Below are positions 7,916 through 55,880 of a stretch of DNA of 64,000 nt, piece after piece; the stretch's first letter is position 1, and each line of letters begins with the position of its first letter. The stretch is from Hyunsoonleella jejuensis (GTDB lineage Bacteria; Bacteroidota; Bacteroidia; Flavobacteriales; Flavobacteriaceae), in contig NZ_FOFN01000001.1 of NCBI RefSeq assembly GCF_900111025.1, positions 868,001 through 932,000 on the forward strand, given 5' to 3'. A model generated the notes under the pieces. The model did no database searches. It had not been told where the DNA came from and worked only from the letters and a program-made list of their open reading frames with translations. Position numbers and translations under genes: made by a program.

Positions 7916-7919
7916 CAAA

Positions 7920-9685: not shown

Positions 9686-9823
9686 TTGTGTTATAGTTTA
9701 GAAGGTAAAAGTAATAATTTGATTGCAATTAGAAACTTTTTTTTGGTTTTAAAGTTTGCAGAAACGAATCTATAGCAATGAAACTGATTTTATGATTTTA
9801 GAACGGTAATAGCAGGTAAGCCC

Positions 9824-9926: not shown

Positions 9927-9939
9927 CCAAAAGAATAAT

Positions 9940-11304: not shown

Positions 11305-11320
11305 ATTGCTAATAGTTGAG

Positions 11321-11328
11321 TAAATTTG
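11321..11328 (+). promoter_or_regulatory. -7 box of the DUF423 gene
   Basis: TAAATTTG fits TAnnTTTG, 19 bp before the ATG, inside the 43-bp divergent gap to saccharopine dehydrogenase. Confidence 0.4.
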
Positions 11329-11347
11329 AGAAACTTATTTATATAAA

Positions 11348-11734: not shown

Positions 11735-11772
11735 AAATACGAATTTTATATTTTTAGTTTAAAATATTATCA

Positions 11773-11780
11773 TAATTTTG
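11773..11780 (+). promoter_or_regulatory. -7 box of the pckA promoter
   Basis: TAATTTTG fits TAnnTTTG and lies 31 bp before the pckA ATG. No good -33 TTG is at the usual spacing. Confidence 0.4.
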
Positions 11781-11811
11781 CGTAATAATTATTTCATAAA
11801 ATTAATTTAGT

Positions 11812-13425: not shown

Positions 13426-13431
13426 AGTAAT

Positions 13432-13468
13432 AAAAAAGCGTTTTCAATTTGAAAACGCTTTTTTTTAA
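13432..13468 (+). terminator. Strong bidirectional terminator, pckA / hemD
   Basis: GCGTTTTC (13438-13445) pairs with GAAAACGC (13451-13458), flanked by an A run on the left and eight T on the right. It serves pckA (+) and hemD (-). Confidence 0.88.
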
Positions 13469-13488
13469 TTCAGTATTAAAGGTAGGAT

Positions 13489-14238
13489 TTATTTTCCTTT
13501 ATTAACCTTTTCAATATATTTTTCTAAAGCCATAGTCATCGAAGGTGTTTCAGGGGTTGGTGCAGCAATATCTACACGTAATCCTTTTTCTTCAACAGCT
13601 TTTATTGTAGTATTTCCAAAAACAGCTATACGAGTATTGTTTTGTTTGAAATCTGGAAAGTTTTGAAATAACGATTCAATTCCAGATGGGCTAAAAAACA
13701 CGAGAACATCGTAGTAAACATTTGCTAAATCAGATAGGTCGCTCACTACAGTTTTGTAGAACGTTGCTTGTTTCCAATTTACACCTAAACCATCTAGAGT
13801 CTCTGGTACTAAAGGTTTCACTTTGTCTGTATTTGGTAATAGGAATTTTTCGTCTTTATATTTTTTAATCAATGGAGATAGTTCTGGAAAAGTACGCTTA
13901 CCCACGTAAATTTTACGTTTTCTATAAACCACATATTTTTGAAGATAGTATGCTACAGCCTCTGACTGACAAAAATATTTCATAGTGTCAGGCACCTTAA
14001 AACGCATTTCTTTGGCTACTCTAAAAAAGTGATCTACTGCGTTTCTACTTGTTAAAATTATGGCAGTATAGTTATTTAAGTCAATTTTTTGTTGCCTAAT
14101 TTCTTTTGCAGGAACACCTTCAACGTGAATAAAAGGTCTAAAATCTATTTTCACTTTATTTTTCTCCTGTAGGTCAAAGTAGGGAGAGTTCTCAATTTTA
14201 GGTTCTGGTTGAGATACTAAAATGGTCTTCACTTTCAT
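13489..14238 (-). CDS. hemD: Uroporphyrinogen-III synthase
   Basis: 249 residues. The sequence is divergent, as usual for HemD, but carries the expected alternating two-domain pattern: KTILVSQPEP at the N-terminus, YTAIILTSRNAVDHFF (about 83-98), VLVFFSPSGIESLF and IAVFGNTTIKAVEEKGL toward the end. The enzyme inverts ring D and cyclises hydroxymethylbilane to uroporphyrinogen III. It follows the DUF4271 gene with an 18-bp gap, a pairing usual in flavobacteria, and the two are likely one operon. Other haem genes are absent from the window. Confidence 0.82.
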   Translation of the reverse strand: MKVKTILVSQPEPKIENSPYFDLQEKNKVKIDFRPFIHVEGVPAKEIRQQKIDLNNYTAIILTSRNAVDHFFRVAKEMRFKVPDTMKYFCQSEAVAYYLQKYVVYRKRKIYVGKRTFPELSPLIKKYKDEKFLLPNTDKVKPLVPETLDGLGVNWKQATFYKTVVSDLSDLANVYYDVLVFFSPSGIESLFQNFPDFKQNNTRIAVFGNTTIKAVEEKGLRVDIAAPTPETPSMTMALEKYIEKVNKGK

Positions 14239-14256
14239 AGGTCAAAAATAGTTTAA

Positions 14257-14901
14257 TTAGGCACTAAAAACCGCGTAAATAATTACATAGGGTGCGATTT
14301 CGAGAGCGCAAAGATACAAAATAAAATAGAAAAAGTTATTTTTTATCTCATTTTGATACATTTTGTAAGAAGTAACTAAACCGCTAATATTCAATATAAA
14401 AAGTATGGCAATAATAGTAAAAATAACAGCTTTGGTAGGTGTTATGCTAAAGATTAAAATAGCATTAATTGGGAGCAATAATAATCCTAAATAATTTTTA
14501 TAGCTTATTTTTTGAAATAGGTATATGTCTACTATGGTATCTATCTCAAAAAGGCTAGCAAGCAAGCGTTCTAAAAGCACCTTGGCGAGCATAAAAATTG
14601 CAATACCGATAGCTAATTTAAAAATTAGCGTAATGTTTATAGTTATTGCGTTGTTAAGGTTTTCAATACACAATACGCCGAAGATTGCGCCGGATATTAC
14701 CAAATTTAAAAACAGCAAACCATCATAATAATCTAAAAACTTTTGGTCTTTGCCATAAATTTTTAAATATCGTGAATTACTGATGATCAAAATAAATTCG
14801 TTAAAACGTTTTGAAGCAATGCTTTTAGCCAAAGTTATAGTAACTAGACAAATAAGTAATAGTATGGTGTAAAGCGTATGTGACGGCACTTCTCGAAGCA
14901 T
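14257..14901 (-). CDS. DUF4271 integral membrane protein
   Basis: 214 residues with about six hydrophobic helices, from TLYTILLLICLVTITLA near the N-terminus to FFYFILYLCALEIAPYVIIY at the C-terminus. The late EIAPYVIIY segment is characteristic of DUF4271. The function is unknown. It sits immediately upstream of hemD on the same strand, as in other Flavobacteriaceae, so a link to haem synthesis or envelope physiology is possible by context only. Confidence 0.75.
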   Translation of the reverse strand: MLREVPSHTLYTILLLICLVTITLAKSIASKRFNEFILIISNSRYLKIYGKDQKFLDYYDGLLFLNLVISGAIFGVLCIENLNNAITINITLIFKLAIGIAIFMLAKVLLERLLASLFEIDTIVDIYLFQKISYKNYLGLLLLPINAILIFSITPTKAVIFTIIAILFILNISGLVTSYKMYQNEIKNNFFYFILYLCALEIAPYVIIYAVFSA

Positions 14902-14978
14902 GGGTTAAAATTATCATAAATTTTAAAGAATGAGAGAATTATTGCGAAATTTTTAAAAAAAAGAATGGCTTAAAAATG

Positions 14979-14986
14979 TACATTTG
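14979..14986 (+). promoter_or_regulatory. -7 box before the polyprenol mannosyltransferase operon
   Basis: TACATTTG fits TAnnTTTG, 17 bp before the chosen ATG (15004). No clear -33 element. Confidence 0.35.
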
Positions 14987-15003
14987 TTTCAATATTGTTT
15001 TCA

Positions 15004-15735
15004 ATGAAAGACGCTGTTGTAATTATTCCAACTTATAATGAGATTGAAAATATCGAGCTAATTATCGAGGCTATATTTTCACAATCTAAACACATACATA
15101 TTCTAATAGTTGATGATAATTCTCCAGATGGTACGGCAGACAAAGTAAAGGAACTTCAAGATAAATTTTTAGGACGTTTACATTTAAAACAGCGCGAGGA
15201 AAAATCGGGTTTAGGAACTGCTTACATTCTAGGGTTTAAATGGAGTTTGGTGAGAAGCTATGAGTATGTTTTTGAAATGGATGCTGATTTTTCGCATAAC
15301 CCGAAAGACTTAATAAGATTGTATAATGCCTGTGCCAAAGCGGGTGCAGATATGTCTATTGGTTCGCGCTACATTACCGGTGTAAACGTGGTAAATTGGC
15401 CGATGAGTAGAGTTTTAATGTCTTACTTGGCATCAAAATACGTGCGTTTCATTACAGGTATGAAAATTAAAGACACCACTGCTGGTTTTGTATGTTATAA
15501 ACGAAAGGTATTAGAAAGTTTAGATTTAACAAAAATTAAATTTATAGGTTATGCATTTCAAATTGAAATGAAGTTTAAAACGTATTTAAAACATTTTAAA
15601 ATAGTTGAAGTTCCCGTTATCTTTACCGATAGAACTCGAGGCGAATCTAAGTTGAGTTCAGGTATTATTTCTGAAGCGGTTTTTGGGGTTCTCTCTATGA
15701 AATTGAAAAGTTTATTTAAAAGAAAGGATTTGTAA
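15004..15735 (+). CDS. Polyprenol monophosphomannose synthase-like GT2 glycosyltransferase
   Basis: 243 residues from the ATG at 15004. An in-frame TTG three codons earlier (14995) is less likely, because the ATG begins right at the family start (KDAVVIIPTYNE). GT-A fold motifs: IPTYNEIENIE, VDDNSPDGTAD and the metal-binding EMDADFSHNP; GSRYITGVNVVNWP and TDRTRGESK are typical of dolichyl/polyprenyl-phosphate mannosyltransferases. There is no C-terminal membrane extension, so it is the soluble DPM1-type form. It supplies a lipid-linked sugar for periplasmic glycosylation. The stop overlaps the dihydroorotase start (TAATG). Confidence 0.85.
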   Translation: MKDAVVIIPTYNEIENIELIIEAIFSQSKHIHILIVDDNSPDGTADKVKELQDKFLGRLHLKQREEKSGLGTAYILGFKWSLVRSYEYVFEMDADFSHNPKDLIRLYNACAKAGADMSIGSRYITGVNVVNWPMSRVLMSYLASKYVRFITGMKIKDTTAGFVCYKRKVLESLDLTKIKFIGYAFQIEMKFKTYLKHFKIVEVPVIFTDRTRGESKLSSGIISEAVFGVLSMKLKSLFKRKDL

Positions 15736-17081
15736 TGAAGCTAAAACGTACACTTATTAAAAACGCTAAAATTGTAAATGAAGGTGAAACCTTTAGCGGA
15801 GATATATTGATTGAGGGTGAATTTATAAAACAAATAGATACCTCAATTAGTGCAAAATGGACTGATGTAAGTATTATTGATGCTGAAGGTAAATATGTGT
15901 TGCCAGGAGCTATTGACGACCAGGTGCATTTTAGGGAGCCAGGACTTACGCATAAAGCAGATATTGCAACAGAGTCTAAAGCGGCCTTGGCTGGAGGGAT
16001 TACTTCCTTTATTGAAATGCCAAATACAAACCCGCAAACAACTACGGTTGAAAAGCTCGAGGAAAAGTTTGCCATAGCATCTAAAACATCTGCTGCGAAC
16101 TATTCGTTTATGTTTGGCGGTACAAACGATAATCTGGAAGAGATTTTAAAGGTTGACGAAACAGCGGTTGCAGGCTTAAAATTGTTTTTGGGCTCTTCAA
16201 CAGGAAATATGCTCGTGGACGATCCAAAAGTTTTAGAAAAGATTTTTAAAAGTACCAATATGGTAATTTCGGTGCATTGTGAAGATGAGGCTACTATTCG
16301 AGAAAATCTTGAAAACCATATTAAGGAGTTTGGAGAGGATATTCCAATAGAAAAGCACCCTATTATAAGAAGTGAGGAAGCATGTTACCTATCCTCTTCA
16401 ACAGCTATCGAACTTGCTAAAAAAACGGGTGCAAGATTACATGTGTTTCATTTGTCAACTGGAAAGGAGACTAAATTGTTTACGAATAAAATTCCTTTAA
16501 AAGATAAAAAGATTACTGCTGAAGTGTGTATTCACCATTTATGGTTTTCAGATGAAGACTACAAGACTAAAGGTACGTTTATAAAGTGGAATCCAGCCGT
16601 TAAAACAGCAAAGGACAGAGAACAATTATGGCAGGCACTTTTAGATGATAGAATTGATGTAATTGCTACAGACCACGCGCCACATACTATTGAGGAGAAG
16701 AAAAACGTTTATACTAAAGCGCCCTCAGGTGGTCCGTTGGTACAACATGCCTTACCTGCTATGTTAGAAATGTACCATAAAGGTAAAATCTCAATTGAGA
16801 AAATAGTAGAAAAAATGTGCCATAACCCCGCGATTTTATTTCAAGTAGAGCGCAGAGGATATATAAAAGAAGGGTATTATGCAGATTTAGTTTTGGTAGA
16901 TTTAAATAATCCGTGGACTGTAAAAAAGGATAATATTCTTTACAAATGTGGATGGTCTCCTTTTGAAGGCGCAACATTTAAATCTAGAATTACACATACT
17001 ATTTTAAACGGTACTTTGGTGTACCAAAATTTTAAATTTCAAGATGTAAAGGTAGCTAAAAGATTAACATTCAATAGATAA
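15735..17081 (+). CDS. pyrC: Dihydroorotase (class I-like), with Gln in the first metal motif
   Basis: 448 residues, family length. Amidohydrolase signatures: PGAIDDQVHFREPG (about 57-70), FIEMPNTNPQT, LFLGSSTGNM, ISVHCEDE, LHVFHLST and VIATDHAPHT. The enzyme closes N-carbamoyl-aspartate to dihydroorotate in pyrimidine synthesis. The usual HxH metal motif reads QVH here, so the first His ligand is Gln; the other His residues and the catalytic Asp of TDHAPH are present. I recall the same DDQVH wording in other Bacteroidota sequences, so it may be a lineage variant. It is coupled by TAATG overlaps on both sides. Confidence 0.85.
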   Translation: MKLKRTLIKNAKIVNEGETFSGDILIEGEFIKQIDTSISAKWTDVSIIDAEGKYVLPGAIDDQVHFREPGLTHKADIATESKAALAGGITSFIEMPNTNPQTTTVEKLEEKFAIASKTSAANYSFMFGGTNDNLEEILKVDETAVAGLKLFLGSSTGNMLVDDPKVLEKIFKSTNMVISVHCEDEATIRENLENHIKEFGEDIPIEKHPIIRSEEACYLSSSTAIELAKKTGARLHVFHLSTGKETKLFTNKIPLKDKKITAEVCIHHLWFSDEDYKTKGTFIKWNPAVKTAKDREQLWQALLDDRIDVIATDHAPHTIEEKKNVYTKAPSGGPLVQHALPAMLEMYHKGKISIEKIVEKMCHNPAILFQVERRGYIKEGYYADLVLVDLNNPWTVKKDNILYKCGWSPFEGATFKSRITHTILNGTLVYQNFKFQDVKVAKRLTFNR

Positions 17082-17587
17082 TGCAAAAAAAATTAATAGT
17101 GCTATGTTGTTTTTTTGTTGTGCTTTCTTCGTGCTACAAATACAACAAACCTGATAAACCAAAAAATCTAATTCCAGAAGATGAAATGGTTCATATTTTA
17201 TTGGACTTAAAACTCATTGCAGCGGTCACAGGAAGAGATAAGGAAGTTCTAGATAGTGCCAAAGTTGATGCTGAAGGTTATATCTATAAAAAATATAATA
17301 TTGATAGCTTACAGTTTGCCAAAAGCAATACCTATTATACCTATTACATGGATGAGTATGCTGAGATTTATGTAAAAGTAAAGGATAGCTTATCTAAGTT
17401 AAAAACCTACTACAAAGACATTCTCGACAAAGAGCGAGAGGAAAAAAAGAAGGCAGATTCTTTAAAGACAGTAAAAAAGGAATTGAAGGAACTGGAAATT
17501 GATGTAGAAATGGGAACTGGTGGGCATGAAGAGTTAGAAAACATAGAACTTATTGAGCCTGTTTCAGATAATGTTGGGCAATCTTAA
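17081..17587 (+). CDS. DUF4296 lipoprotein
   Basis: 168 residues. Lipoprotein signal with box LSSC (Cys18) and a short charged tether (YKYNKPDKPKN). The conserved core is IPEDEMVHILLDLKLI followed by a helical region containing DSLQFAKSNTYYTYYMDEY, the DUF4296 pattern of Bacteroidota. A charged Lys/Glu-rich coiled segment lies at about 100-145. The function is unknown. Third gene of the coupled operon after mannosyltransferase and dihydroorotase; its 3' end overlaps the convergent SDR gene by 38 bp. Confidence 0.78.
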   Translation: MQKKLIVLCCFFVVLSSCYKYNKPDKPKNLIPEDEMVHILLDLKLIAAVTGRDKEVLDSAKVDAEGYIYKKYNIDSLQFAKSNTYYTYYMDEYAEIYVKVKDSLSKLKTYYKDILDKEREEKKKADSLKTVKKELKELEIDVEMGTGGHEELENIELIEPVSDNVGQS

Positions 17588-18560
17588 CAATCACCTTATC
17601 TATAGCTTCAAATTTAAAGTTTAGTGTCGTTGCCACTTTATGACTGTCGTAATGCTTTTCCGTAGTTAAAGATTTTACCAGTTGTTTTGTTAGGCGTCTT
17701 CGTTTACCCGTAAGTTTTTGTTTTAACCAGTCTAATCGCCAACCTATTTGCAATAACCAAGGTGCTGCTAGTTTTTGTGGTGGCTTTACACTTAAAGCTG
17801 TTGCCATAGTTTTTAGAAAAAATTTGTACGACCAGTTTTCGGCGACCAAAACATAGCGTTCATTTTTTTTGTCGCTTTTAAGCAACTGTATCATAATGGT
17901 CACAACATCGGTTACAGAAACTAAACCAAGACTTCCCGAAGTGTAATAGTTTAAGCCATGAAAAACTTTTTTAAATAAACTTCCAGACCCATAACGCCAA
18001 ATGCCAGCGCCAAGAATAACTCCAGGATTTACAATTACGGCATCTAGCCCTTCTTGTGTGGCACGCCAAACTTCCATTTCAGCACCATATTTAGTAATGG
18101 CGTAAACACTATTGTCATCCTCAGGATTCCAATGGGTTTCTTCTGTTATAGGTTCATTTTTAGGCGAATTTCCAATAGTTGCTATAGAGCTTACATAACA
18201 CAATTTTTTAACTTGATTTGAGATACATAGATTTACCACATTGGCGGTGCCTTCAATGTTACTGCGACGTAACTGTTGGTATTTGTCTGGTTCAAAAGAT
18301 ACAAAGGCGGCGCAATGATATACGTATATTATCCCATGCAATGCTTCGTCTAGCGCAGGAATATCTAATATATCAGCCTTAACCCATTCAATTTTATCAA
18401 AAAGCTGCTGGTAGTTGTTGGTATAGCAAGAGAACACACGTTTTACATTTTCAAGTTTACGCTCGGTTCTATAAATGGCTCGTACTTTTTCATCACTAGA
18501 AACTAATCTATAGAGTAAGTGCGCACCAACCAAACCTGTACCTCCAGTTACTAAAATCAT
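17550..18560 (-). CDS. NAD(P)-dependent epimerase/dehydratase-like SDR
   Basis: 336 residues, extended short-chain dehydrogenase. Cofactor motif TGGTGLVGAHL at the N-terminus; the catalytic Tyr-Lys pair is in VYAITKYGAEMEVW; NPGVILGAG follows, as in 3-beta-hydroxysteroid dehydrogenase/dihydroflavonol reductase-like SDRs. The C-terminal 70 residues are basic (KLTGKRRRLTKQLVKSL), which suggests an association with membrane lipids or nucleic acid but is not diagnostic. The substrate cannot be told. The 3' end runs 38 bp into the opposite-strand DUF4296 gene. Confidence 0.8.
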   Translation of the reverse strand: MILVTGGTGLVGAHLLYRLVSSDEKVRAIYRTERKLENVKRVFSCYTNNYQQLFDKIEWVKADILDIPALDEALHGIIYVYHCAAFVSFEPDKYQQLRRSNIEGTANVVNLCISNQVKKLCYVSSIATIGNSPKNEPITEETHWNPEDDNSVYAITKYGAEMEVWRATQEGLDAVIVNPGVILGAGIWRYGSGSLFKKVFHGLNYYTSGSLGLVSVTDVVTIMIQLLKSDKKNERYVLVAENWSYKFFLKTMATALSVKPPQKLAAPWLLQIGWRLDWLKQKLTGKRRRLTKQLVKSLTTEKHYDSHKVATTLNFKFEAIDKVIVKIAQHYLKQAQ

Positions 18561-18613
18561 ATAACGAAATTAAAGAATTATTCAGAATCGATGCCTATTT
18601 CTACACGTATTTT

Positions 18614-18621
18614 TATATTTG
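18614..18621 (+). promoter_or_regulatory. -7 box of the tyrS promoter
   Basis: TATATTTG fits TAnnTTTG, 25 bp before the tyrS ATG in the divergent gap with the SDR gene. Confidence 0.45.
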
Positions 18622-18646
18622 CGCTAGTTTTCTAAAATAACATATA

Positions 18647-19942
18647 ATGACAACCAATTTTGTAGAAGAATTAACATGGAGAGGCATGATTCACACAGTA
18701 ATGCCAGGAGCTGAGGAGCATTTAATGGAAGGTATGAAAAGCGCTTATGTTGGGTTCGATCCAACAGCAGATTCTCTACATATTGGTAACTTAGTGCCTA
18801 TTATGCTTTTAGCGCATTATCAACGTTGCGGACATAAACCTGTGGCTTTAGTTGGTGGTGCTACGGGTATGATTGGCGATCCTTCAGGAAAGTCCAGTGA
18901 GCGCAATTTGTTAGACGAGAAAACACTTCGCCATAATCAAGAAGCTATAAAAAAGCAACTAGCACATTTTTTAGATTTTGAAAGTGATGCCGATAATGCT
19001 GCGGTTTTGGTGAATAATTATGATTGGATGAAGGAATTCTCCTTTTTAGAATTTATCCGTGATGTTGGTAAGCATATTACCGTAAACTATATGATGGCGA
19101 AGGATTCCGTAAAAAACAGGATTTCATCGGATGATTCTGAAGGGATGAGCTTTACCGAGTTTACGTATCAGTTGGTGCAAGGTTACGACTTTTTACATTT
19201 ATACAGAGCCAATGATTGCACCATCCAAATGGGCGGAAGCGACCAATGGGGGAATATTACCACAGGTACGGAGTTGATTAGGAGAATTGGCGGCGGAAAA
19301 GGCTATGCCATTACATGTCCACTAATTACGAAGTCTGATGGTTCTAAATTTGGAAAGTCTGAAGGAGGAAATGTGTGGTTAGATGCTAACAGAACGTCGC
19401 CTTATAAATTTTACCAATATTGGTTGAACTCGAGTGATGAAGATGCTGAAAAGTATATCAAGATTTTCACATTTTTAACTGAAGATGACATAAATAGTAT
19501 TATTGCAGAGCATAGAGAAGCACCACATTTAAGAGTGCTACAAAAGTGTTTAGCTGAGGAAATTACTACAATGGTACACTCTAAATCAGATTTAGAAAAT
19601 GCTATAAAGGCTAGTAATATTCTCTTCGGAAAATCTACAAGTGATGATTTAAAAGCACTTAATGAACAAACGTTTTTAGATGTTTTCGATGGTGTGCCGC
19701 AAACCGAAATTGATAAATCTGAGATTCTGGAAGGGTTGGATATGATTGGTGCTCTTGCCGAAAAAGGCGGGTTTCTTAAATCTAATGGAGAGGCTAGACG
19801 TGCGCTTAAAGAAAATTCTATTTCAGTGAACAAAGAAAAAGTGAAAGAGGATTATAAAATCACTGGAGCAGATTTAATCAACAATAAGTTTGTGCTTTTG
19901 CAACGTGGTAAAAAGAATTATTTTGTTATTACTGTAAAATAA
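18647..19942 (+). CDS. tyrS: Tyrosyl-tRNA synthetase
   Basis: 431 residues, full length. Class I motifs: HIGN at 45-48 ([14 protein letters not shown]) and the KMSKS-equivalent KFGKS at about 233-237. Tyrosine-pocket motifs are QGYDFLHLY and [13 protein letters not shown]-terminal S4-like RNA-binding domain covers about 365-430 ([18 protein letters not shown]). It charges tRNA-Tyr in the cytoplasm. It has its own -7 box and terminator, so it is monocistronic. Confidence 0.97.
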
Positions 19943-45850: not shown

Positions 45851-46390
45851 ATGAGTAAACTAAAAATACAAGACGCCATAGATAGTAAGTTAATTGAGCA
45901 ACGCAAAGTATTTTTGTGGGGACAGGTGGATGACAAGTCTGCCAAACATGTCATTGATAGATTATTATATTTAGACGCGTTGGAAACTGCTGATATACAA
46001 TTGTATATTAATAGTCCTGGAGGTTATGTAACTTCTGGTTTTGCGATGTATGACTGTATTCAGTCCTTAAAGAGTGATGTGTCAACTATCTGTACGGGGT
46101 TAGCAGCTTCTATGGGTTCTATTTTATTATCGGTAGGTACAAAAGGGAAGCGTTTTATTCAGCCGCATGCGCGTGTGATGATTCATCAACCAAGTGGAGG
46201 CGCACGAGGACAAGCGAGTGATATTGAAATTACGGCTCAAGAGATTTTAAAAACAAAGGAGCTAAGTGCCAAGATTTTAGCTGATAATTGTGGACAGACT
46301 TTTGAAAAGGTGATGAAAGATTTTAATCGCGATCACTGGATGGGAGCTGAAGAATCTGTGGCCTACGGCATAGTGGATAAAGTTATATAA
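45851..46390 (+). CDS. clpP: ClpP-like protease subunit, short form, away from clpX
   Basis: 179 residues, shorter at the N-terminus than the usual 195-225. The catalytic triad is complete: Ser87 (GLAASMGS), His112 (MIHQPSGG) and Asp161 (DFNRDHWM). YINSPGGYVTSG and EYGIVDKVI-type ends are canonical. It has no neighbouring clpX, tig or lon, so it may be a paralogue that forms mixed rings with the main ClpP, or an independent ring. The short N-terminus could alter docking of the ATPase partner. It is flanked by a trxA terminator and by a repeat-rich gap. Confidence 0.9.
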   Translation: MSKLKIQDAIDSKLIEQRKVFLWGQVDDKSAKHVIDRLLYLDALETADIQLYINSPGGYVTSGFAMYDCIQSLKSDVSTICTGLAASMGSILLSVGTKGKRFIQPHARVMIHQPSGGARGQASDIEITAQEILKTKELSAKILADNCGQTFEKVMKDFNRDHWMGAEESVAYGIVDKVI

Positions 46391-46391: not shown

Positions 46392-46532
46392 GCCCCTAAC
46401 CCCCAGTTGGGGGAACTCTTACTCTTGTAGATTGGGTGTTTTGTAAATTGAATATATAATAAATAGACCTGATGAATTTCATTCTTTTTAGATTATGAGT
46501 GAAATTCCTCCCCTTTGGGGAGGTTAGGAGGG
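46392..46532. repeat. Inverted-end intergenic repeat
   Basis: Starts AGCCCCTAACCCCCAG with a CCCCCAGTTGGGGG hairpin and ends with CCTCCCCTTTGGGGAGG and GGTTAGGAGGGGCTT, so the outer ends are near-inverted repeats. About 140 bp, a MITE-like layout seen often between flavobacterial genes. It may end clpP transcription. Confidence 0.5.
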
Positions 46533-46541
46533 GCTTCTCGT

Positions 46542-47471
46542 ATGGATATACAAACGGAACTAAATAAAGCCGAAGGTTTTAAAAATCTGGAATTACTTGC
46601 TAAACAAGTAGTTGAAGGTTTTATTGCCGGTATGCATAAGAGTCCGTTTCATGGGTTTTCAGCGGAATTCGCAGAACATAAAATTTACAATCGTGGTGAA
46701 AGTACACGCCATATAGATTGGAAGTTATATGCTAAAACCGATAAGCTTTACACCAAACGTTATGATGATGAAACGAATTTACGTTGCCACATTATATTGG
46801 ATAACAGTAGCTCCATGCATTACCCAAAATTAGAATCTTTTTCCATTGATAGCTTAAATAAAATAGGGTTTTCGGTATTGGCTGCAGCATCTTTAATGCA
46901 GATTTTAAAAAAACAGCGTGATGCTGTTGGCTTAAGTATTTATAGTGATGAATATGATTATTACGCGCCCGAAAAGGGTAGTGAACGTCATCATCAAATG
47001 TTACTCAAACATTTGAGCGATGCTGTAATTTCGAAACCTTTAAATAAAGAGACGGAGACCTATAAGTATTTACATGAAATAGCAGAAAAGATTCATAGGC
47101 GCTCATTGATATTTTTATTTACGGATATGTTTCAAACCTCCGAAGATGAGGTGAAGTTGTTCGAGGCACTTCGGCATTTAAAATATAATAAACATGAGGT
47201 GATTCTGTTTCATGTGTTTGATAAAGAAAAAGAATTGCAGTTTGATTTTGATAATAGCCCCAAACGTTTTATAGATGTTGAAACGGGAGCGTATATCAAT
47301 TTATATGCTGATTCGATAAAAGAGAATTACAGTAAATCTGTGAATGATTATTTTGAAGCACTACGTTTAAAATGCATGCAATATAAAATCAAATATGTAG
47401 AGGCTGATACTAACAAGAGTTTCAATTCTATTTTAACAGCCTATATGGTGGAACGCCAAAAATTTAGATAA
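46542..47471 (+). CDS. DUF58 / vWA-like domain protein
   Basis: 309 residues from the ATG at 46542; the in-frame TTG at 46515 lies inside the repeat and is unlikely. HGFSAEFAEHKIYNRGESTRHIDWKLYAKTDKLYTK is the DUF58 signature (shown here only by its parts GESTRHIDW and KLYAKTDKLY), followed by a vWA-like HIILDNSSSM metal-ion site (DxSxS) and RSLIFLFTDMFQTSEDEVKLF. DUF58 proteins are usually paired with MoxR ATPases and BatA-type proteins, which are not next to it. Function is unknown; no signal peptide or membrane segment is seen. Confidence 0.85.
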   Translation: MDIQTELNKAEGFKNLELLAKQVVEGFIAGMHKSPFHGFSAEFAEHKIYNRGESTRHIDWKLYAKTDKLYTKRYDDETNLRCHIILDNSSSMHYPKLESFSIDSLNKIGFSVLAAASLMQILKKQRDAVGLSIYSDEYDYYAPEKGSERHHQMLLKHLSDAVISKPLNKETETYKYLHEIAEKIHRRSLIFLFTDMFQTSEDEVKLFEALRHLKYNKHEVILFHVFDKEKELQFDFDNSPKRFIDVETGAYINLYADSIKENYSKSVNDYFEALRLKCMQYKIKYVEADTNKSFNSILTAYMVERQKFR

Positions 47472-47581
47472 AAAAACCTTACTATTTTCGCCTAAGCTAA
47501 TTACTCACCTTAAGCCGAACTCTTGCTCTAGAGTGTAAATTGTGAGATTGTAAAAAATACTTTAAAAAACTTAAAAAAAGA

Positions 47582-47612
47582 TTTGACTTATAAAAAAAGG
47601 CGTGTATATTTG
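47582..47612 (+). promoter_or_regulatory. Consensus promoter of tRNA-Asp
   Basis: TTTG (47582-47585), a 19-nt spacer and TATATTTG (47605-47612), the ideal Bacteroidota primary sigma-factor promoter, 18 bp before the tRNA. Confidence 0.85.
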
Positions 47613-47630
47613 CATCCGCAATAGAGCAAC

Positions 47631-47704
47631 GGTCTGGTAGTTCAGTTGGTTAGAATATCTGCCTGTCACGCAGGGGGTCGCGGGTTCGAGTCCCGTCCAG
47701 ACCG
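47631..47704 (+). tRNA. tRNA-Asp (anticodon GTC)
   Basis: A complete 74-nt cloverleaf: acceptor GGTCTGG with CCAGACC, D-stem GTTC/GAAT, anticodon stem TCTGC/GCAGG with loop CTGTCAC (GTC at 47665-47667), variable loop GGGTC, T-stem GCGGG/CCCGT with TTCGAGT, and discriminator G73, the identity base for Asp. CCA is not encoded. A perfect consensus promoter precedes it and a hairpin terminator follows. Confidence 0.97.
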
Positions 47705-47715
47705 CAAAAATTGCA

Positions 47716-47868
47716 AAAAAAGCTCTGAGAAATTAGAGCTTTTTTATTATAAAGATGTTGTGTTGTTCACGCCTTAGGCGTGATGTAGTTTACTAAGTTT
47801 ACTTGGTAACCAATGGAAAGCTTTCCTTTTTTCTGAATAAGAAGATTGGGATGCTTTTTTGTTTTATA
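47716..47868 (+). repeat. 153-bp direct repeat, copy A (includes tRNA-Asp terminator)
   Basis: Identical to 50195-50347 apart from two adjacent bases (AT here, CG there, at 47746-47747). It starts with the AAGCTCT/AGAGCTT terminator hairpin of the tRNA, then the palindrome CACGCCTTAGGCGTG, and ends GCTTTTTTGTTTTATA. Together the repeats frame the lipoprotein gene; the offset is exactly 2479 bp. Confidence 0.93.
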
Positions 47869-48107
47869 CAACTCTCCTCCATAATAGATCGTCCTGGTGT
47901 CTATTGCCAATGGCATCTGATCTTAATTGTATTAAAGCTAATTCATTCCTAGAAAGAATAACAACAAAACCGAATACACAGAATTAGGTTTTTAATCCTA
48001 AATTAATTACCAGTCATCTAATTATTTCCAAAATACTCAAATTGAGTATAGGCTCTTTCTTTGTTTAGGGTTACCTTAAAATTCTATTAACCAAGCAATT
48101 CAAAATA
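47869..48107. other. Gene-free stretch between repeat A and the lipoprotein gene
   Basis: About 240 bp, A/T-rich, with no intact ORF. One forward frame gives a short stretch of coding-like composition interrupted by stops, possibly a decayed gene that I cannot identify. It must hold the promoter of the lipoprotein gene; no TAnnTTTG box is evident. Confidence 0.4.
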
Positions 48108-50123
48108 ATGAAAAGAAAATTACTCTATGTTTTTACGCTTTTTTTAGTTTTTACATGTTCAAAGGTTGAGCCCCTTTATGATATTACAAAAGAAAAAATT
48201 GTTTTAGAAGAAGGTTTGGATATTGATTATGATGATTTAATTGCCTTAACGTTTGATGAAGAATCTGATGTTGATGAAAACGGAGGTTTTGAAATTGATA
48301 ATCCAACCGATGGAGACTTGCCAATTGTTTTCTTGAAAGATGATGAGATAATTTTTGGATATTATGAAAAAACAGGAAACAACAACACTGTTTCTGTTGA
48401 TGATATTCTATTGTTTTATTTTTCATTACATCCTGAAATTGTAAAGCAAGGAGTAGAAAGAGCATCCTTATTAGGCAGTATAAAATCTAATGACAACTAC
48501 GAGAGCTTAAAGAATGAGATAAAAACGTCGTTAGGAGAGAATGTAACACCCTTTAAAAATCAAGACTTCGTAAAAATACTAAATGAAAGTGGTTATGAAA
48601 TTGGCATAAAAACTAGAACAGATAAAGGGAATAGGCATTCCAAAAAAACAGATAAATACAATTTTACCTTTACAAGAGATGGCATAATAGAGTGGGAAAA
48701 GAAATTTCCTGTTTATTGTACTGTTGGACTTGAAATAGTAGATAAAAAAACTAATGAATCTGTTTCAGGAACTCAATTATTAGATAAATCTGGGTTAGAC
48801 TTATTAGCTCCTGGTTCTGCAATTGAATGGCTTTATAAGTATTTTACAACTGAAGAATCAGATACCAAGGTGAGATATGAATTACCTAAAGATGGAGAAT
48901 ATCAAATTAATTTGTCTAACGGAGTTGATAATTTTGGTACAAAAGAATTTGAATCCAAGATTGATGAGATAAACAGAATAAATTTGGGTATTGATATAGT
49001 TAGTTTTATGATTCCTATAGGAATTGAAAAGGTATTGGGTAAAGCGGATTGTAGAGATGCTATTGTAGGGTTTTTTAAAGGTATTTCTCTATCAAGCTTG
49101 AAAACTGTATTTTATTTAAATGGAAATCTTAATGAGGTTGAAGCTGAAAAAGAGTTGTTCAATATATCAAATGACATTTATGATGAAATAGTAAAATGTG
49201 CTTTAGGAGGAAAAGGCATAAAATTCATTGATAAAATAAAAGATATTGGAGATAAGTATTTTAATAAAGTAAAAGATGGAGCAAGTATAGCTCTTTTTAT
49301 CAGAGACTATGTTGTATCTGATATTAAAAGTTCTGAGACCAGATATTTTTATGACGGAGTATCCTTTGGTACATTAAGTCAACAAAATCTTTCAGGGCTG
49401 GAGTTTATTAATTCAGATGGGAATACTGAATTTAATGGAAAAACAGGTGATGAGCATTTTTATAAGTTAGAAATTAAGGAAGAAGTTATTACCCATGAAG
49501 TAGATCGGCTTCTTTGGACATCTGTAAGTGCGGTCGCTGAAGAACAAACAGCTATTGGGGTTCCTTTTGAGATAACGAAAAGTAATGATGGGGACGCTAA
49601 GTTAATTGAAGTTGATAAAATTGTTGAGGCAAGGGTAGATGGGACTAGTATTGGCGAAACTACCATTGATGGCATACTTCAATTAAAATTTGAAACAGGA
49701 ACCAAAAATAGTCAGTTCGAAATCACACCTGCCTTTGAAAGCAATGGTTTACTCATAAACGAAGCAATTACTCTAAAGGTTTTAGAGACTTCATATGTTT
49801 ACCCAGAAAATGGTGCTTATGGTCAAAACATTTTAAACAGAGAGGCTAGTATAAATCCTCCAGGTAATTTTTCGTTGCATGCAAATATCCCGGAAGGAAA
49901 AGATTTAAGAGTTAAGGTAATTGGTAATTTTGCTGTTGTTGGAAATTCAGGTAATGGCTGGACGTGGAATACAACTGTAGTACAACAACCCTATGAAGTA
50001 ACAGCTGATTTCACATCAACTCAAACTGGTTTGGTAGATGTAGGTCTGCTTGTTAACCCTAGTGGCATAACAAGAATAGAGGTTTATGAAAACGGAGATA
50101 CAGTGGCTACTTGGACGAGATAG
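48108..50123 (+). CDS. Accessory lipoprotein of unknown function within a direct-repeat unit
   Basis: 671 residues that I do not recognise. Lipoprotein-like signal with Cys18 (LVFTCSKVE). Residues about 25-90 are strongly acidic (DYDDLIALTFDEESDVDEN). The middle has a hydrophobic stretch (LGIDIVSFMIPIGIEKVLG, about 294-312) and GGKGIKFIDKIKDIGDKYF. The C-terminal third is beta-rich with Ig-like spacing (FEITKSNDGDAKLIEVDKI, then TRIEVYENGDTVATWTR). No catalytic motif or sorting domain is visible. It is the only gene within the 153-bp direct repeats downstream of tRNA-Asp, so it looks like an acquired or at least a separable cargo gene. Confidence 0.6.
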   Translation: MKRKLLYVFTLFLVFTCSKVEPLYDITKEKIVLEEGLDIDYDDLIALTFDEESDVDENGGFEIDNPTDGDLPIVFLKDDEIIFGYYEKTGNNNTVSVDDILLFYFSLHPEIVKQGVERASLLGSIKSNDNYESLKNEIKTSLGENVTPFKNQDFVKILNESGYEIGIKTRTDKGNRHSKKTDKYNFTFTRDGIIEWEKKFPVYCTVGLEIVDKKTNESVSGTQLLDKSGLDLLAPGSAIEWLYKYFTTEESDTKVRYELPKDGEYQINLSNGVDNFGTKEFESKIDEINRINLGIDIVSFMIPIGIEKVLGKADCRDAIVGFFKGISLSSLKTVFYLNGNLNEVEAEKELFNISNDIYDEIVKCALGGKGIKFIDKIKDIGDKYFNKVKDGASIALFIRDYVVSDIKSSETRYFYDGVSFGTLSQQNLSGLEFINSDGNTEFNGKTGDEHFYKLEIKEEVITHEVDRLLWTSVSAVAEEQTAIGVPFEITKSNDGDAKLIEVDKIVEARVDGTSIGETTIDGILQLKFETGTKNSQFEITPAFESNGLLINEAITLKVLETSYVYPENGAYGQNILNREASINPPGNFSLHANIPEGKDLRVKVIGNFAVVGNSGNGWTWNTTVVQQPYEVTADFTSTQTGLVDVGLLVNPSGITRIEVYENGDTVATWTR

Positions 50124-50194
50124 ACATTACTAGAAGGTTGAACAATTTATGCATTGCTATAACAGGTGCAATTTGCAGCAATAGTTGTTTTATG

Positions 50195-50347
50195 AAAAAA
50201 GCTCTGAGAAATTAGAGCTTTTTTCGTATAAAGATGTTGTGTTGTTCACGCCTTAGGCGTGATGTAGTTTACTAAGTTTACTTGGTAACCAATGGAAAGC
50301 TTTCCTTTTTTCTGAATAAGAAGATTGGGATGCTTTTTTGTTTTATA
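50195..50347 (+). repeat. 153-bp direct repeat, copy B
   Basis: Second copy of the sequence after tRNA-Asp (47716-47868), with two base differences. It includes the same terminator hairpin (AAAGCTCT/AGAGCTTT, 50198-50221) which here follows the lipoprotein gene. The rest of the 376-bp gap to the phosphorylase gene (50124-50194 and 50348-50499) holds no ORF or other motif that I can support. Confidence 0.93.
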
Positions 50348-50499
50348 GCAATTGGTATTTTGCTATATACTTTTTGTGTTTTTCTAGAAATTTTAGAAAC
50401 AAAACAAATTACTTCTAAGCTGTAATTTATTCATACTTAGTTTATATATAAACTCTCGGTTTTCATTACATTTAAACTTTTAATTTCAAAACATTTCTC

Positions 50500-52140
50500 A
50501 TGGAGCACATATATAGTAAATGGTATCACCCGTACGAACCGGCCAAGGCATATAGCAAGCGCGTAGCCTATTTTAGTATGGAGTTTGGGATAGATCAAAG
50601 TTTTAATATTTATTCTGGTGGTTTGGGGTTTTTGGCTGGCTCTCATATGCGATCGGGCTTTGAGTTGAAGCAAAATATGATAGGGATAGGTATGCTATGG
50701 AAGTATGGTTATTATGACCAAGCAAGAAATGAAGACCAAACCTTGAAAACAGAGTTTAATGAGAAACATTTTAACTTTCTTGAAGATACAGGAATTGAAG
50801 TTGAAATTAAGTTGCATGACAATCCGCATGTAAAAGTAAGGGCTTATGTTTTAAAACCGGAAATTTTTGGCACCGTTCCTATGTATTTTTTAACAACTGA
50901 TGTGGATGGTAACGATCACCTGTCTAGAACAATCACAAACCATTTATACGATAAAAACCAAGTTACACGTGTATCACAAAGTATAGTTTTGGGTATTGGT
51001 GGAGCTAAAGTTGTAGAGGCTTTAGGTGGTGCAGAGACTTACCATTTAAACGAAGGACATGCATTGCCAGCATTTTATTATTTAAGGGATAGAGGTGTTT
51101 CAAAACATCAAATGGTTTTTACAACGCATACTCCAGAAAAAGCAGGAAATGAAGAACGAGATGCATGGCATTTAAATCGATGTGGGTTTTTTGGAAGACA
51201 ACTTTCTAATGAAGAATTAGAAAAAGAAATGGTTAATGGAGGCATGATTAATTATACGGTTTCTGCATTAAGAATGTCTAAAAAAGCCAATGGGGTTTCT
51301 AAGCTGCATGCTAAAGTAGCTAACGCTATGTGGAAGGATTACAGCGGTATTAGTGAGATTATCCCTATAACAAATGCTCAAAATCAAAAATTCTGGCAAG
51401 ATGAAATTATTAAAGAAGCGTGGATCTCAAAAAATAGAAAGGCTTATAAGGAAAGAAAGCTAGCACTAAAACAAGAGCTATTCAAAGAAGTAAAAAAACA
51501 AACAGGAAAAGTGTTTGACACCAATGTGCTAACATTTGTATGGGCACGACGATTTGCAGCCTATAAAAGAGCAGATTTACTACTGCATGATTTTGATCGT
51601 TTTAAGAGATTGATAACGAATAGCAAATATCCTGTACAAATTATTTGGGCAGGGAAACCATACCCTTATGACTACGGTGCAATAGATGTGTTTAATCATT
51701 TAGTACACCAATGCAAGAATGAGCCTAATCTTGCCGTTTTAATTGGGTATGAAATAGATTTATCGAAACGATTAAAATGTGGTTCGGATATATGGTTAAA
51801 TACGCCCAGAATTACGCGAGAAGCTTCGGGTACAAGCGGTATGACTGCCGCAATGAATGGCTCGGTAAATGTTTCAACAAATGATGGATGGATTCCTGAA
51901 TTTGAAAAAGACGGCGAAAATTGTTTTGTATTACCCCCATTAGATCATAATCTTCCAACTTGGGACCAGGATAAAATTGATACAAACAATCTTTATAATA
52001 TTTTGGAGCAAAATGTAATCCCAACCTATTATGATAATCCAGATAAATGGCAGGATATTGTTTTTAAAGCAATGGACGACGTTATTCCCGATTTTACAAC
52101 CCAAAGAATGGCCGATGAGTATTATAAAAAATTGTTTTAA
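50500..52140 (+). CDS. glgP: GT35 alpha-glucan phosphorylase-like protein lacking the PLP lysine
   Basis: 546 residues, the short alpha-glucan phosphorylase type. GT35 motifs: YFSMEFGIDQSFNIYSGGLG at 26 onward, YHLNEGHALPAFYYL (about 186-200), TTHTPEKAGNEERD, and VWARRFAAYKRADLLLHD. In catalytic phosphorylases the PLP Schiff-base lysine is in SGTSGMK or SGTSNMK; here the loop reads SGTSGMTAAMNG, with Thr449 (codon act) where Lys is expected. So as written it cannot bind PLP in the usual way. I recall similar Bacteroidota sequences with Thr here, so it may be a lineage form with a different activity. Upstream is repeat B; a LacI-type regulator follows 297 bp later on the same strand. Confidence 0.8.
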   Translation: MEHIYSKWYHPYEPAKAYSKRVAYFSMEFGIDQSFNIYSGGLGFLAGSHMRSGFELKQNMIGIGMLWKYGYYDQARNEDQTLKTEFNEKHFNFLEDTGIEVEIKLHDNPHVKVRAYVLKPEIFGTVPMYFLTTDVDGNDHLSRTITNHLYDKNQVTRVSQSIVLGIGGAKVVEALGGAETYHLNEGHALPAFYYLRDRGVSKHQMVFTTHTPEKAGNEERDAWHLNRCGFFGRQLSNEELEKEMVNGGMINYTVSALRMSKKANGVSKLHAKVANAMWKDYSGISEIIPITNAQNQKFWQDEIIKEAWISKNRKAYKERKLALKQELFKEVKKQTGKVFDTNVLTFVWARRFAAYKRADLLLHDFDRFKRLITNSKYPVQIIWAGKPYPYDYGAIDVFNHLVHQCKNEPNLAVLIGYEIDLSKRLKCGSDIWLNTPRITREASGTSGMTAAMNGSVNVSTNDGWIPEFEKDGENCFVLPPLDHNLPTWDQDKIDTNNLYNILEQNVIPTYYDNPDKWQDIVFKAMDDVIPDFTTQRMADEYYKKLF

Positions 52141-52437: not shown

Positions 52438-53442
52438 ATGGTAACCTTAAAACAACTTGCAAAAGAGTTAAACGTTTCTATATCAACTGTTTCAAAAGCA
52501 CTCAATGACAGCGAGGAAATTAGCGAAGAGACTAGAAAGCGTGTTAAAGAACTTGCAACGTTATATAATTATAAACCAAATAAGGTAGCTTTAAGTTTAA
52601 AACAAAACAAAACAAAGACTATTGGTGTAATTATACCCGATATTCTCAACTATTTTTTATCTAAAGTACTTTATGGAATAGAAAGAGAAGCCAATAAGCA
52701 TGGTTATAATATTATCACTTGTATTTCGAATGAATCTTTAGAAAAGGAAAAAGCAAGTTTAGAGCTTTTGGCCAATGGCAGTGTAGACGGATTTATATTA
52801 AGTATTGCTGAAGAAACTCAAACTAAAAACGAAATCAATCATTTTAAAGATACTATAGCGCAAGGTTTGCCGATAGTAATGTTTGATAGGGTAGCACACG
52901 ATGTAAAATGTGATAAAGTTATAGTTGATGATTTTAACGCTACGTATAGTGCAACCAAAAGTTTAATTAATGAAGGTAGAAAGCATATTGTTTTTGTTAG
53001 TAAAATTGATAATATTAGTGTAGGCAAGCTGCGAGAACGAGGCTATAATAAAGCCATATTAGAGGAAAGTTTTCAGCCGCATGTTGTTTTAGTTAAAAAA
53101 GGTGATGATGCACAACAGATAATAAAACAACTCTACAAAAAAAATAAAAATATAGATGGAGTTGTAGCCGCAGATAGCGCATCTGGCATTATAGCAATTA
53201 ATATGGCTAGGAACTTTAAGAAAAAAGTACCAAAGGATATTTCGGTAATTGGATTCTCTAGCAAATCTGTTTCAAACCATTCAGTTCCTAAACTGACTAT
53301 AATACGCCAGCATGCGAAAAAAATAGGGTCAAAAGCCGCCGAATTATTAATAGATAGGTTAAAAACTAACGGCGAACCCCCTCAAAATTTCTCTACCAAA
53401 ATAGTTAAAACAACATTGGTGAAAAGTAAATCTACTTTGTAA
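52438..53442 (+). CDS. LacI-family transcriptional regulator
   Basis: 334 residues. N-terminal LacI helix-turn-helix VTLKQLAKELNVSISTVSKALND with the hinge that follows (KPNKVALSLKQ); periplasmic-binding-like core from about 60 (TIGVIIPDILNYFLSKVLYGIE) with SVDGFILSIAEE, VVAADSASGIIAINMAR and SVIGFSSKSVSNHSVPKLT. The effector is probably a sugar. The closest sugar-related gene is the phosphorylase upstream on the same strand, but a separate -7 box suggests separate expression. Confidence 0.92.
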   Translation: MVTLKQLAKELNVSISTVSKALNDSEEISEETRKRVKELATLYNYKPNKVALSLKQNKTKTIGVIIPDILNYFLSKVLYGIEREANKHGYNIITCISNESLEKEKASLELLANGSVDGFILSIAEETQTKNEINHFKDTIAQGLPIVMFDRVAHDVKCDKVIVDDFNATYSATKSLINEGRKHIVFVSKIDNISVGKLRERGYNKAILEESFQPHVVLVKKGDDAQQIIKQLYKKNKNIDGVVAADSASGIIAINMARNFKKKVPKDISVIGFSSKSVSNHSVPKLTIIRQHAKKIGSKAAELLIDRLKTNGEPPQNFSTKIVKTTLVKSKSTL

Positions 53443-54026: not shown

Positions 54027-55880
54027 TTGAGGAATCTTTTTACAGCTATTATATTCCAGTCATTATTCTTTGCAGTTCAATTCTGTCCTGCTCAAGAAAA
54101 TGTAAGTCTTAAAAAAATAGATTCACTCAAAAGGATCTTGCTAGACAATGAAATTCAAGATTCTCTCTCAATTGCAAAAGCACATTATAATATAGGGGAG
54201 TTATATAGATTTAGTTTTATAGGAGATAGTGCATATTATTACTACTTCAAAGCTGACAAAATATTTAAGAAACTCAATAACAGCTTTTTCTCAGCAAAAA
54301 CACTTTACGGTATAGCGGTTGCACAGAAAAATGAAAAGGATTTTACCGCTAGTGAAGTGACATCAATTGAAGCGCTTTCTATTTTAAATCAATTGGAACC
54401 AACCTATGAAGTGAAAAAATACAAATCATATGTTTACAATAATTTGGGGCTATTATTTGGTGAATTGGAGCAATTTGAAGAGTCAATATCATACCATGAA
54501 AAAGCTATTAGTTTGAAGCAAGAATATGACTCTGAAAACTCTTATAACATTAATATTTCAAGAAATAATTTGGCTCTTTCATATAAAAAATGGGGTAAGT
54601 ATGAACTTGCAATCCGCTATTATGGTGATATTTTGTCAAAAAAAAGCCTAAAAAAAGAAAGACCAAATTTTTACTCGTTAGTACTCGACAATTATGCACA
54701 CACGCAATATTTAAATGGAAATTTAGATAATTTACCAGAATTATACTTTAAGGCATTAAGAGTTGCAGATAGCATAAATCCTGAAGGCGGCTATAATTCT
54801 ATAATTATAAATCAACATCTAGCTAATTTTTATTTTGATAAAGATGAAATAGATTCCGCTAGATATTACGCTAATACCGCGAAGGAAATAGCAGAGAATT
54901 ATTCTAATGACGAGCTTTTAACCTCTCTACTGGTACTTTCTAAAGTCGAGGATGGAGAAAAGGCAGTAGAGCACCTTAAAGCCTATGTAAAATTAAGTGA
55001 CAGTCTCCAAAAAGCAGAACGAAAAATAAGAAACAAATTTGCACGTATTCGATTTGAAACCCAGCAAATAGAGCAAGAAAACATTCGAATAGCAAGAGAG
55101 CGTATGTGGCTGGTTATTATCTCCATTATTTTGCTTGTCGCAGGGGTCCTTATTTATATTATTATTACACAAAGGGCAAAAAACAAAGAGCTTCAATTTG
55201 CAAAACAACAGCAAGAAGCCAATGAAGAAATTTATAATTTAATGCTTGGCGAACATGAAAAAGTAGAGGAGGCCAGGGCATTAGAAAAACAAAGAATTTC
55301 CCAGGAACTTCATGATGGTGTTTTGGGTAGGTTATTTGGAACACGATTGAGTTTAGATAGTCTAAACATGAACAATAGTGATGAGGCTATTAAAACACGT
55401 AGTCAGTATATTGGTGAGCTTAAAACTATTGAAGAGGATATTAGAAAAGTATCTCACGAACTGAATACCGATTTTGTATCAGGTTCTGGATTTATTGATA
55501 TCCTGAAAACTATGGTAGAGACTCAAACTACGGTCTACAAGTTGAAGTACGATATTTACCATGACGATGATATTAACTGGGATGGCGTTTCAAATAAATC
55601 TAAAATACACATTTATAGAATATTACAAGAATCGCTTCATAATATTCATAAACATGCTAATGCTACTTACATTATTATTAGCATAAAACTTGAAAATAAT
55701 GTAATTTGCTTAACAGTGAAAGATGATGGTTCAGGTTTTGATATGGCTAAATCTAAATCAGGAATTGGCCTTAAAAACATGAATGCTAGAATTGCGGAAA
55801 TAGGCGGTTCTCTTAAAATTGAATCAGAAAAAAATCAAGGTACAACAGTAAGAATAGAGATTCCAACCAAATACCTATAA
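54027..55880 (+). CDS. TPR-containing sensor histidine kinase (HisKA_3/NarL type)
   Basis: 617 residues. Start is TTG: an in-frame TAG lies two codons upstream and no ATG precedes the signal peptide. Signal peptide at 1-23 (MRNLFTAIIFQSLFFAVQF). Five to seven TPR motifs span about 45-320 (YVYNNLGLLFGELEQFEESI and SYKKWGKYELAIRYYGDIL). A transmembrane helix at about 361-381 (WLVIISIILLVAGVLIYIII) is followed by a coiled linker and the H-box RISQELHDGVLGRLFGTRL with His429. The ATPase domain ends the protein (VKDDGSGFDMAKSKSGIGLKN). Periplasmic TPRs probably sense a peptide or protein ligand. It is paired with the response regulator 6 bp downstream. Confidence 0.9.
   Translation: MRNLFTAIIFQSLFFAVQFCPAQENVSLKKIDSLKRILLDNEIQDSLSIAKAHYNIGELYRFSFIGDSAYYYYFKADKIFKKLNNSFFSAKTLYGIAVAQKNEKDFTASEVTSIEALSILNQLEPTYEVKKYKSYVYNNLGLLFGELEQFEESISYHEKAISLKQEYDSENSYNINISRNNLALSYKKWGKYELAIRYYGDILSKKSLKKERPNFYSLVLDNYAHTQYLNGNLDNLPELYFKALRVADSINPEGGYNSIIINQHLANFYFDKDEIDSARYYANTAKEIAENYSNDELLTSLLVLSKVEDGEKAVEHLKAYVKLSDSLQKAERKIRNKFARIRFETQQIEQENIRIARERMWLVIISIILLVAGVLIYIIITQRAKNKELQFAKQQQEANEEIYNLMLGEHEKVEEARALEKQRISQELHDGVLGRLFGTRLSLDSLNMNNSDEAIKTRSQYIGELKTIEEDIRKVSHELNTDFVSGSGFIDILKTMVETQTTVYKLKYDIYHDDDINWDGVSNKSKIHIYRILQESLHNIHKHANATYIIISIKLENNVICLTVKDDGSGFDMAKSKSGIGLKNMNARIAEIGGSLKIESEKNQGTTVRIEIPTKYL

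Follow-up and report, generated by a model that had tools for sequence, protein, structure and literature searches.

A structured element in the tRNA-Asp trailer of Flavobacteriaceae and a one-gene unit between its two copies in Hyunsoonleella jejuensis

The window (the whole stretch of 64,000 nt analysed here, positions 868,001 to 932,000 of contig NZ_FOFN01000001.1 of Hyunsoonleella jejuensis, assembly GCF_900111025.1) contains a tRNA-Asp locus at which part of the tRNA trailer is present twice (Table 1). The repeat, 153 nt long, starts 11 nt downstream of the tRNA gene and recurs with a start-to-start distance of 2479 nt; in a repeat search the copies are 99% identical over their whole length, which rules out a chance repeat. 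Its first part is T1, a terminator hairpin followed by a T run, and its second an element of ~112 nt with three hairpins (E). The only two mismatches are adjacent (A/C at 47746 and T/G at 47747) and fall in the spacer between T1 and E. Between the copies, the sole same-strand open reading frame of at least 80 aa is that of a predicted lipoprotein of 671 aa, with a leader of 239 bp and with 71 bp from its stop codon to the T1 of the right repeat; one frame of 93 aa overlaps it on the opposite strand. Both the repeat with its two changes and the single gene enclosed had been described in an earlier note on this DNA, and both are borne out.

Table 1. Features of the tRNA-Asp locus and its surroundings (positions in the window)
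Feature	Position	Strand	Remark
ClpP	45851-46390		Upstream of the DUF58 protein
DUF58 protein	46515-47471	+	Conserved left neighbour, after ClpP
TAnnTTTG, which we take to be a promoter-like -7 motif of tRNA-Asp	47605-47612	+	Overlapped by a sigma-70-like pair (47583-47610)
tRNA-Asp (GTC)	47631-47705	+	
Trailer repeat of 153 bp, left copy	47716-47868	+	
T1, terminator hairpin then T run, left copy	47716-47745	+	
Element E, left copy	47753-47864	+	Three hairpins, the last with a T run; 123.6 bits with model R1
Leader of the lipoprotein gene	47869-48107	+	Without significant integrase relic
Cargo, predicted lipoprotein of 671 aa	48108-50123	+	No Pfam, NCBIfam or PADLOC match
Trailer repeat of 153 bp, right copy	50195-50347	+	No tRNA-Asp 3' scar upstream
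Element E, right copy	50232-50343	+	123.6 bits with model R1
Alpha-glucan phosphorylase family protein	50500-52140	+	TIGR02094 above cut-off
LacI-family regulator	52438-53442	+	Right border of the slot in relatives
Histidine-kinase-like gene (cluster c5)	54027-55880	+	Right border where LacI is absent

With tRNA-Asp and its trailer as query, three places are matched in the organism's own genome (3.48 Mb, 11 contigs), the window locus twice and one further tRNA-like stretch (57 bp at 82%), and this search rules out a dispersed repeat or MITE there. No integrase was found within the unit among the open reading frames, with Pfam, or by comparison with the integrases of relatives. The leader gives nothing significant against those integrases, with best matches no better than shuffled sequences, and a tRNA-Asp core sought ahead of the right copy is likewise absent, the best matches again being no better than shuffled. 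The identity between the copies ends 11 nt short of tRNA-Asp.

The lipoprotein has no match in Pfam (E-values up to 1), nor in NCBIfam or PADLOC (up to 0.01), and a defence cargo was rejected for lack of a PADLOC match. At 28-31% identity the lipoprotein is related to a paralogue on a different contig of its own genome and to genes of two congeners; a weak match (24%) exists in a third, and in one congener the last 111 residues are matched at 50%. In the congeners, these genes all sit on contigs other than those with the slot, and across 199 genomes of the family the protein matched its own genome alone. The content of the slot in the window is the lipoprotein gene, the second trailer and the alpha-glucan phosphorylase gene. 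No such phosphorylase gene was seen among the other genus slots; it stands after the right trailer and before LacI and may be additional cargo that has no trailer.

Element E folds alone into its three hairpins at -34.4 kcal/mol (-21.0 for shuffles). A covariance model (R1) was built from 13 copies. tRNA-Asp with at least part of the trailer is present in 12 of 12 genomes of the genus, and R1 matches E in all twelve, in 127 of 199 genomes of the family, and in 16 of 148 genomes of an order-wide sample, all 16 from the same family; the family and order counts are lower bounds because stricter filters were used. That the repeat is a conserved, structured and family-wide element goes beyond the earlier note. 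In 98 aligned copies (95 distinct), 95.4% of the cells pair against 81.3% when shuffled, and changes on both sides of the stems occur in 328 cells against 111 shuffled and at most 78 slid, in an alignment that was fitted to the covariance model itself. From the same alignment RNAalifold recovers stems 2 and 3, not stem 1. A first small MAFFT alignment had given a slight excess (12 cells vs. 11 for the +1 slide). In the terminal hairpin, 2 of the 17 pairs never vary and 5 change on both sides. Taken together, covariation, RNAalifold and the slid controls support the fold of stem 2 well, while the conserved terminal hairpin varies too little to be very informative. Over 47400-50600, the tRNA alone reached an Rfam gathering threshold, so that E is not a known Rfam RNA and, with its covarying stems, constitutes by its sequence a candidate new RNA family. 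T1 is missing in three genomes (G002, G003 and G157), where E directly follows the tRNA.

Small RNAs from tRNA trailers, like 3'ETS-leuZ of E. coli, are RNA segments directly behind a tRNA. E has the same position, with a conserved fold of its own and a terminator-like end, and as judged from sequence is an RNA candidate only; we infer that it is transcribed. Neither the tRNA-Asp element and its conservation nor the units carrying it were found described in the open-licence PMC literature, and both the element and those units are possibly new.

The order ClpP, DUF58, tRNA-Asp, E, slot, LacI and/or kinase, response regulator is kept family-wide. Among 59 loci with the first E next to tRNA-Asp, the right flank is visible in 22. 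There the slot is empty (no frame of at least 100 aa between E and the flank) in 7, the shortest with 85 bp (G185), and occupied in 15, by up to 14.5 kb. The cargo slot beside a tRNA that the earlier note had suspected is therefore real, and the empty, single-cargo and different-cargo forms it looked for exist among the relatives, with unrelated genes in the occupied slots. Conserved flanks with empty and variously occupied forms characterize a hotspot; a second hallmark, the tRNA 3' end repeated directly beyond the cargo, is found in relatives (23 copies), not in the window. Of 30 cargo proteins of relatives scanned with Pfam, 9 are without a match. The others include GMC and berberine-type oxidoreductases, a sulfatase, MacB/FtsX, TauE, a cyclase-globin fusion, PKD proteins with sorting tails, AraC-TPR regulators and a sigma-70 factor. 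A gene of 106 aa lies between E copies in both G016 and G072, with different neighbours, and a block common to G072 and G165 terminates where the second E ends. Homology between G004 and G011 resumes 662 bp past a copy reduced to the 3' hairpin, and with this offset a clean insertion boundary from that comparison was rejected.

Two slots hold further systems. In G121 (L097, 9140-18944), Cas9, a gene of Cas2 size and Cas1 lie between E copies in the tRNA-Asp slot. In G011 (L039, 13802-16292), an AbiEi/AbiEii pair lies between E and a copy with only the 3' hairpin. With lipoproteins, enzymes, an AbiE pair and a type II CRISPR-Cas set, the slot is a good hunting ground for accessory functions.

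We classed 165 copies of E (at least 29 bits) from 116 loci, which were partly picked for genomes with several copies and of which a few come from near-duplicate assemblies. Directly behind an intact tRNA-Asp are 95 copies; 26 have a partial tRNA end, of which 3 are merely cut by the end of the locus or contig, leaving 23 scarred copies (L167 and L188 share one of these); and 44 of the 70 not behind an intact tRNA are without any tRNA trace. Two or more copies occur in 26 of the 127 family genomes with E, among them four (G025, G071, G122 and G128) with two tRNA-Asp genes, each followed by E. In the loci read, all copies point in one direction, mostly 1-15 kb apart and with unrelated cargo between; larger spacings are 34 kb in G132 and about 21 kb in G016. 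No overlap was found between the paired named loci in which it was sought for distances. E copies on other contigs occur in five genomes (G001, G018, G093, G157 and G179).

Several loci are of particular arrangement. In L107, L108, L109 and L110, tandem tRNA-Asp genes, each with its own E, are 239-376 bp apart. The densest array seen is that of L188 (1830-7575), a MAG contig of 7.9 kb with four E copies on one strand within 5.7 kb, two of them scarred by tRNA-Asp and the first followed by an integrase fragment. L092 of G169 (3084-18961) has six E copies of several sequence types with one tRNA-Asp and single genes, on either strand, between them. Four draft assemblies have contigs that end inside or shortly after the trailer (G006 C9, at the start of the oriented L043; G007 C12; G008 C5; G009 C1), as expected if the trailer is repeated there.

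In 18 of the 44 scarless copies, only or mainly the 3' part of E, with the 3' hairpin, is retained. This would be accounted for if the 3' hairpin, or T1, were retained or duplicated downstream of genes because it terminates efficiently, with recombination or mobility incidental, and the copy of G094 at the end of an upstream gene and the T1 of the window 71 bp past the lipoprotein stop can be read in the same way. We consider this improbable, since cargo lies on both strands between copies and a useful terminator should spread beyond one locus, whereas the exact 3'-hairpin pattern has 39 matches in 32 of 199 genomes, 39/39 of them inside E hits. The same result rules out a dispersed repeat or MITE for the hairpin; a regular-expression scan for extra 3' hairpins also found none, with a pattern too strict to count as evidence. 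In the last hairpin, an altered GATAAGGGTTCC-like core replaces GAAAGCTTTCC in 8 of the 70 non-tRNA copies and in 0 of the 95 tRNA-adjacent ones; these extra copies are from G028, G169, G016, G165, G072 and G035.

The 23 scarred copies match exactly the last 11-22 nt of tRNA-Asp, with unrelated DNA before. That homology stops there points to insertion in the T arm, and the scar has the form expected of a T-arm integrase. Such enzymes occur at the junction, as found among the matches listed in a by-family search. The G028 locus reads tRNA-Asp, T1, E, integrase (int417), two genes (277 and 201), tRNA scar, T1 and E. E is also followed by close relatives of this integrase (71.5% and 60% identity) in Hanstruepera marina (L157) and Tamlana sargassicola (L164), all three being tyrosine integrases with arm, SAM-like and catalytic Pfam domains, and a fragment follows E in a MAG (L188). 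The start codons of integrase or fragment are 95-146 bp past E in the four loci. Thus, the lack of an integrase that the earlier note reported holds for the window, where there is neither integrase nor scar, and not for the relatives; and its exchange by homologous recombination fails as a general rule, given T-arm scars and tyrosine integrases at the same junction.

Algibacter onchidii (G155) has the genes 277 and 205, an integrase fragment and, of the second E, only the 3' hairpin; A. luteus (G173) has two genes of the G028 unit and no second E. The series from G028 through G155 to G173 indicates that copies with only the 3' hairpin can be remnants, at least there.

A related idea is that the 3' hairpin of E is itself a recombination site and that cassettes of a gene and a hairpin are moved, as in integrons, by an enzyme encoded elsewhere. 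The arrays of G169, in one orientation and with heterogeneous E types, the right boundaries at the end of E and the copies with only the 3' hairpin would agree with it. It is nevertheless very improbable, since the scars show that the known crossover falls within the T arm of the tRNA rather than the hairpin, and the G028 enzyme scores 25.8 on an integron-integrase model with a cut-off of 265.

Taken together, E behind tRNA-Asp, the variety of cargo, the scars and the integrases beside E indicate a hotspot for small units that arrive with a trailer copy of their own. If so, one expects a foreign copy next to the tRNA and a native one at the far end. In Aestuariivivens marinum the far E has 0.95 identity to the tRNA-adjacent copy of G045 and 0.78 to its own tRNA-adjacent E, and in Formosa maritima the far E has 0.95 to the tRNA-adjacent copy of another genome and 0.82 to its own. 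In G169, a genome of one contig with six copies, two inner copies resemble other genera (copy 14228 with 0.87 to G132 vs. 0.70 to its own, the other with 0.81 to G003 vs. 0.67). Near-identical pairs occur in five genomes, the window (1.00), G051 (1.00), G157 (0.99), G045 (0.98) and G055 (0.96). In G157, G045 and G055, the pairs are scarred all the same, and near-identity alone is therefore no proof of homologous recombination. The two elements of the window are identical, with 0.94 to the best other genome. This disfavours an old fixed duplication, for which the earlier note had expected the same gene in all relatives, and the genus slot loci yielded no gene related to the lipoprotein; the recent event or gene conversion that it proposed agrees with these values.

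We read the unit of the window as a one-gene cargo in a family-wide tRNA-Asp hotspot, of integrase ancestry and now non-autonomous, with a probability of slightly under 0.6. In the relatives, small units with E, a tyrosine integrase and few genes would insert at the T-arm end of tRNA-Asp. Each would restore the tRNA 3' end and come with a T1 and an E of its own; the resident set of tRNA scar, T1 and E would be displaced to the far side. Decay of integrases and scars would then leave cargo between E copies, and repeated rounds would stack units. We infer that integrase activity made such units and that the one in the window arose in this manner. Its near-identical copies may reflect a recent arrival from a close relative or homogenization by gene conversion. 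It would now leave via homologous recombination alone: by recombining the two 153-bp copies, RecA could remove or double the lipoprotein gene, and deletion would yield tRNA-Asp, one trailer, the phosphorylase gene and LacI, with tRNA-Asp and one E as in relatives.

The main rival is that homologous recombination did everything, with DNA of relatives swapped via the conserved trailer, copies evened by gene conversion and no integrase ever in the window unit. The window has neither integrase nor scar, its copies stop at the borders of T1 and E, as they would after gene conversion between copies of partial homology, the two E copies of G051 are identical and lack a scar, and 44 of 70 non-tRNA copies are scarless. 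We find this doubtful all the same, because the first duplication of the trailer needs a source, which the 23 scars and the integrases beside E supply within the family, and because the missing scars may just have been lost by decay. A left edge placed sharply at T1, with near-perfect identity inside, is the pattern that would result if an older copy had been converted or if incoming DNA had recombined there. In a unit freshly inserted by an integrase, the copied stretch should extend to the T-arm end; thus integrase ancestry, with the scar lost and the copies recent or homogenized, is preferred.

A wider proposal, which we put forward tentatively, is that in Flavobacteriaceae the trailer of tRNA-Asp is a structured RNA not described before and carried by very small integrative units, with the tRNA-RNA pair rebuilt at each insertion. 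The slot might then be an array of one-gene cassettes that grows like an integron (toxin-antitoxin, CRISPR-Cas, enzymes, surface proteins), is marked by an RNA gene and is exchanged between genera.

Islands arrayed in tandem where an RNA gene ends, some without integrase, are already known, as described for the ssrA islands of Dehalococcoides and for CIMEs. According to PMC3146451, the ssrA islands are in tandem and in one orientation behind one RNA gene, with insertion in the T-loop, and are bounded by copies of the ssrA 3' end, with a 20-bp gene-end repeat; 15 are without an integration module and are suggested by the authors to be cis-mobilizable. The tRNA-Asp units share the tandem arrangement, the single orientation, the RNA-gene end, the T-loop insertion and members without integrase. 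They differ from the ssrA islands, with their serine recombinase and 20-bp repeat, in that the copied stretch can include a terminator and the E of ~112 nt and in that a unit may carry one gene. A CIME, as described in PMC5704250, is a cis-mobilizable element that results from accretion and decay and retains attL and attR. The similarities are that repeats at a tRNA enclose cargo with genes for neither integration nor transfer (one gene and no integrase found in the window) and that relatives form a series from intact to decayed. In the absence of a recognisable tRNA core before the right copy, attL and attR are not retained, and the window unit is therefore only likened to a CIME so described. 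With no integrase inside it, it is also not an autonomous integrative element. The 10K island of Riemerella anatipestifer (PMC6764341) has a 53-bp direct repeat beside and downstream of tRNA-Arg and a tyrosine integrase, and its authors showed integration and excision. A host of the Flavobacteriia type, a direct repeat at a tRNA and a tyrosine integrase are common to both cases, whereas the tRNA is another and the Riemerella repeat is shorter, in a 10-kb island with an integrase.

At this one site, family-wide gain and loss of genes can be read in a fixed register, from an empty site to a six-copy array, and the Flavobacteriaceae here are abundant marine bacteria. Most islands rebuild the tRNA end only; units that also rebuild a trailer RNA would suggest selection keeping the trailer.

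An origin of the repeat as an att arm of phages or plasmids was rejected, since an exact 23-base scan of viral_contigs gave 0 matches; in BLAST searches of phages and plasmids, the tRNA part alone was covered, in the best 20 of 454 and the best 20 of 247 records. Larger islands are found in G167, G143, G136 and G060, where the distance from tRNA-Asp to the displaced E is 54 to 136 kb, which makes them likely elements of conjugative size. There, tRNA-Asp is without E, with the consequence that a supply of E is not needed for survival, and the nearby integrase is 33-36% identical to that of G028. In these four genomes (L247-L254), the integrase lies on the tRNA side of the island, and several of the islands have a CACAAATCGTCAACA-like motif near their ends. 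A 55% relative of the G028 integrase lies at another tRNA-like match on contig C12 of G006 (L027, 815069-818125), possibly a G028-type enzyme at a different tRNA, and the integrase subfamily is thus not confined to the tRNA-Asp site.
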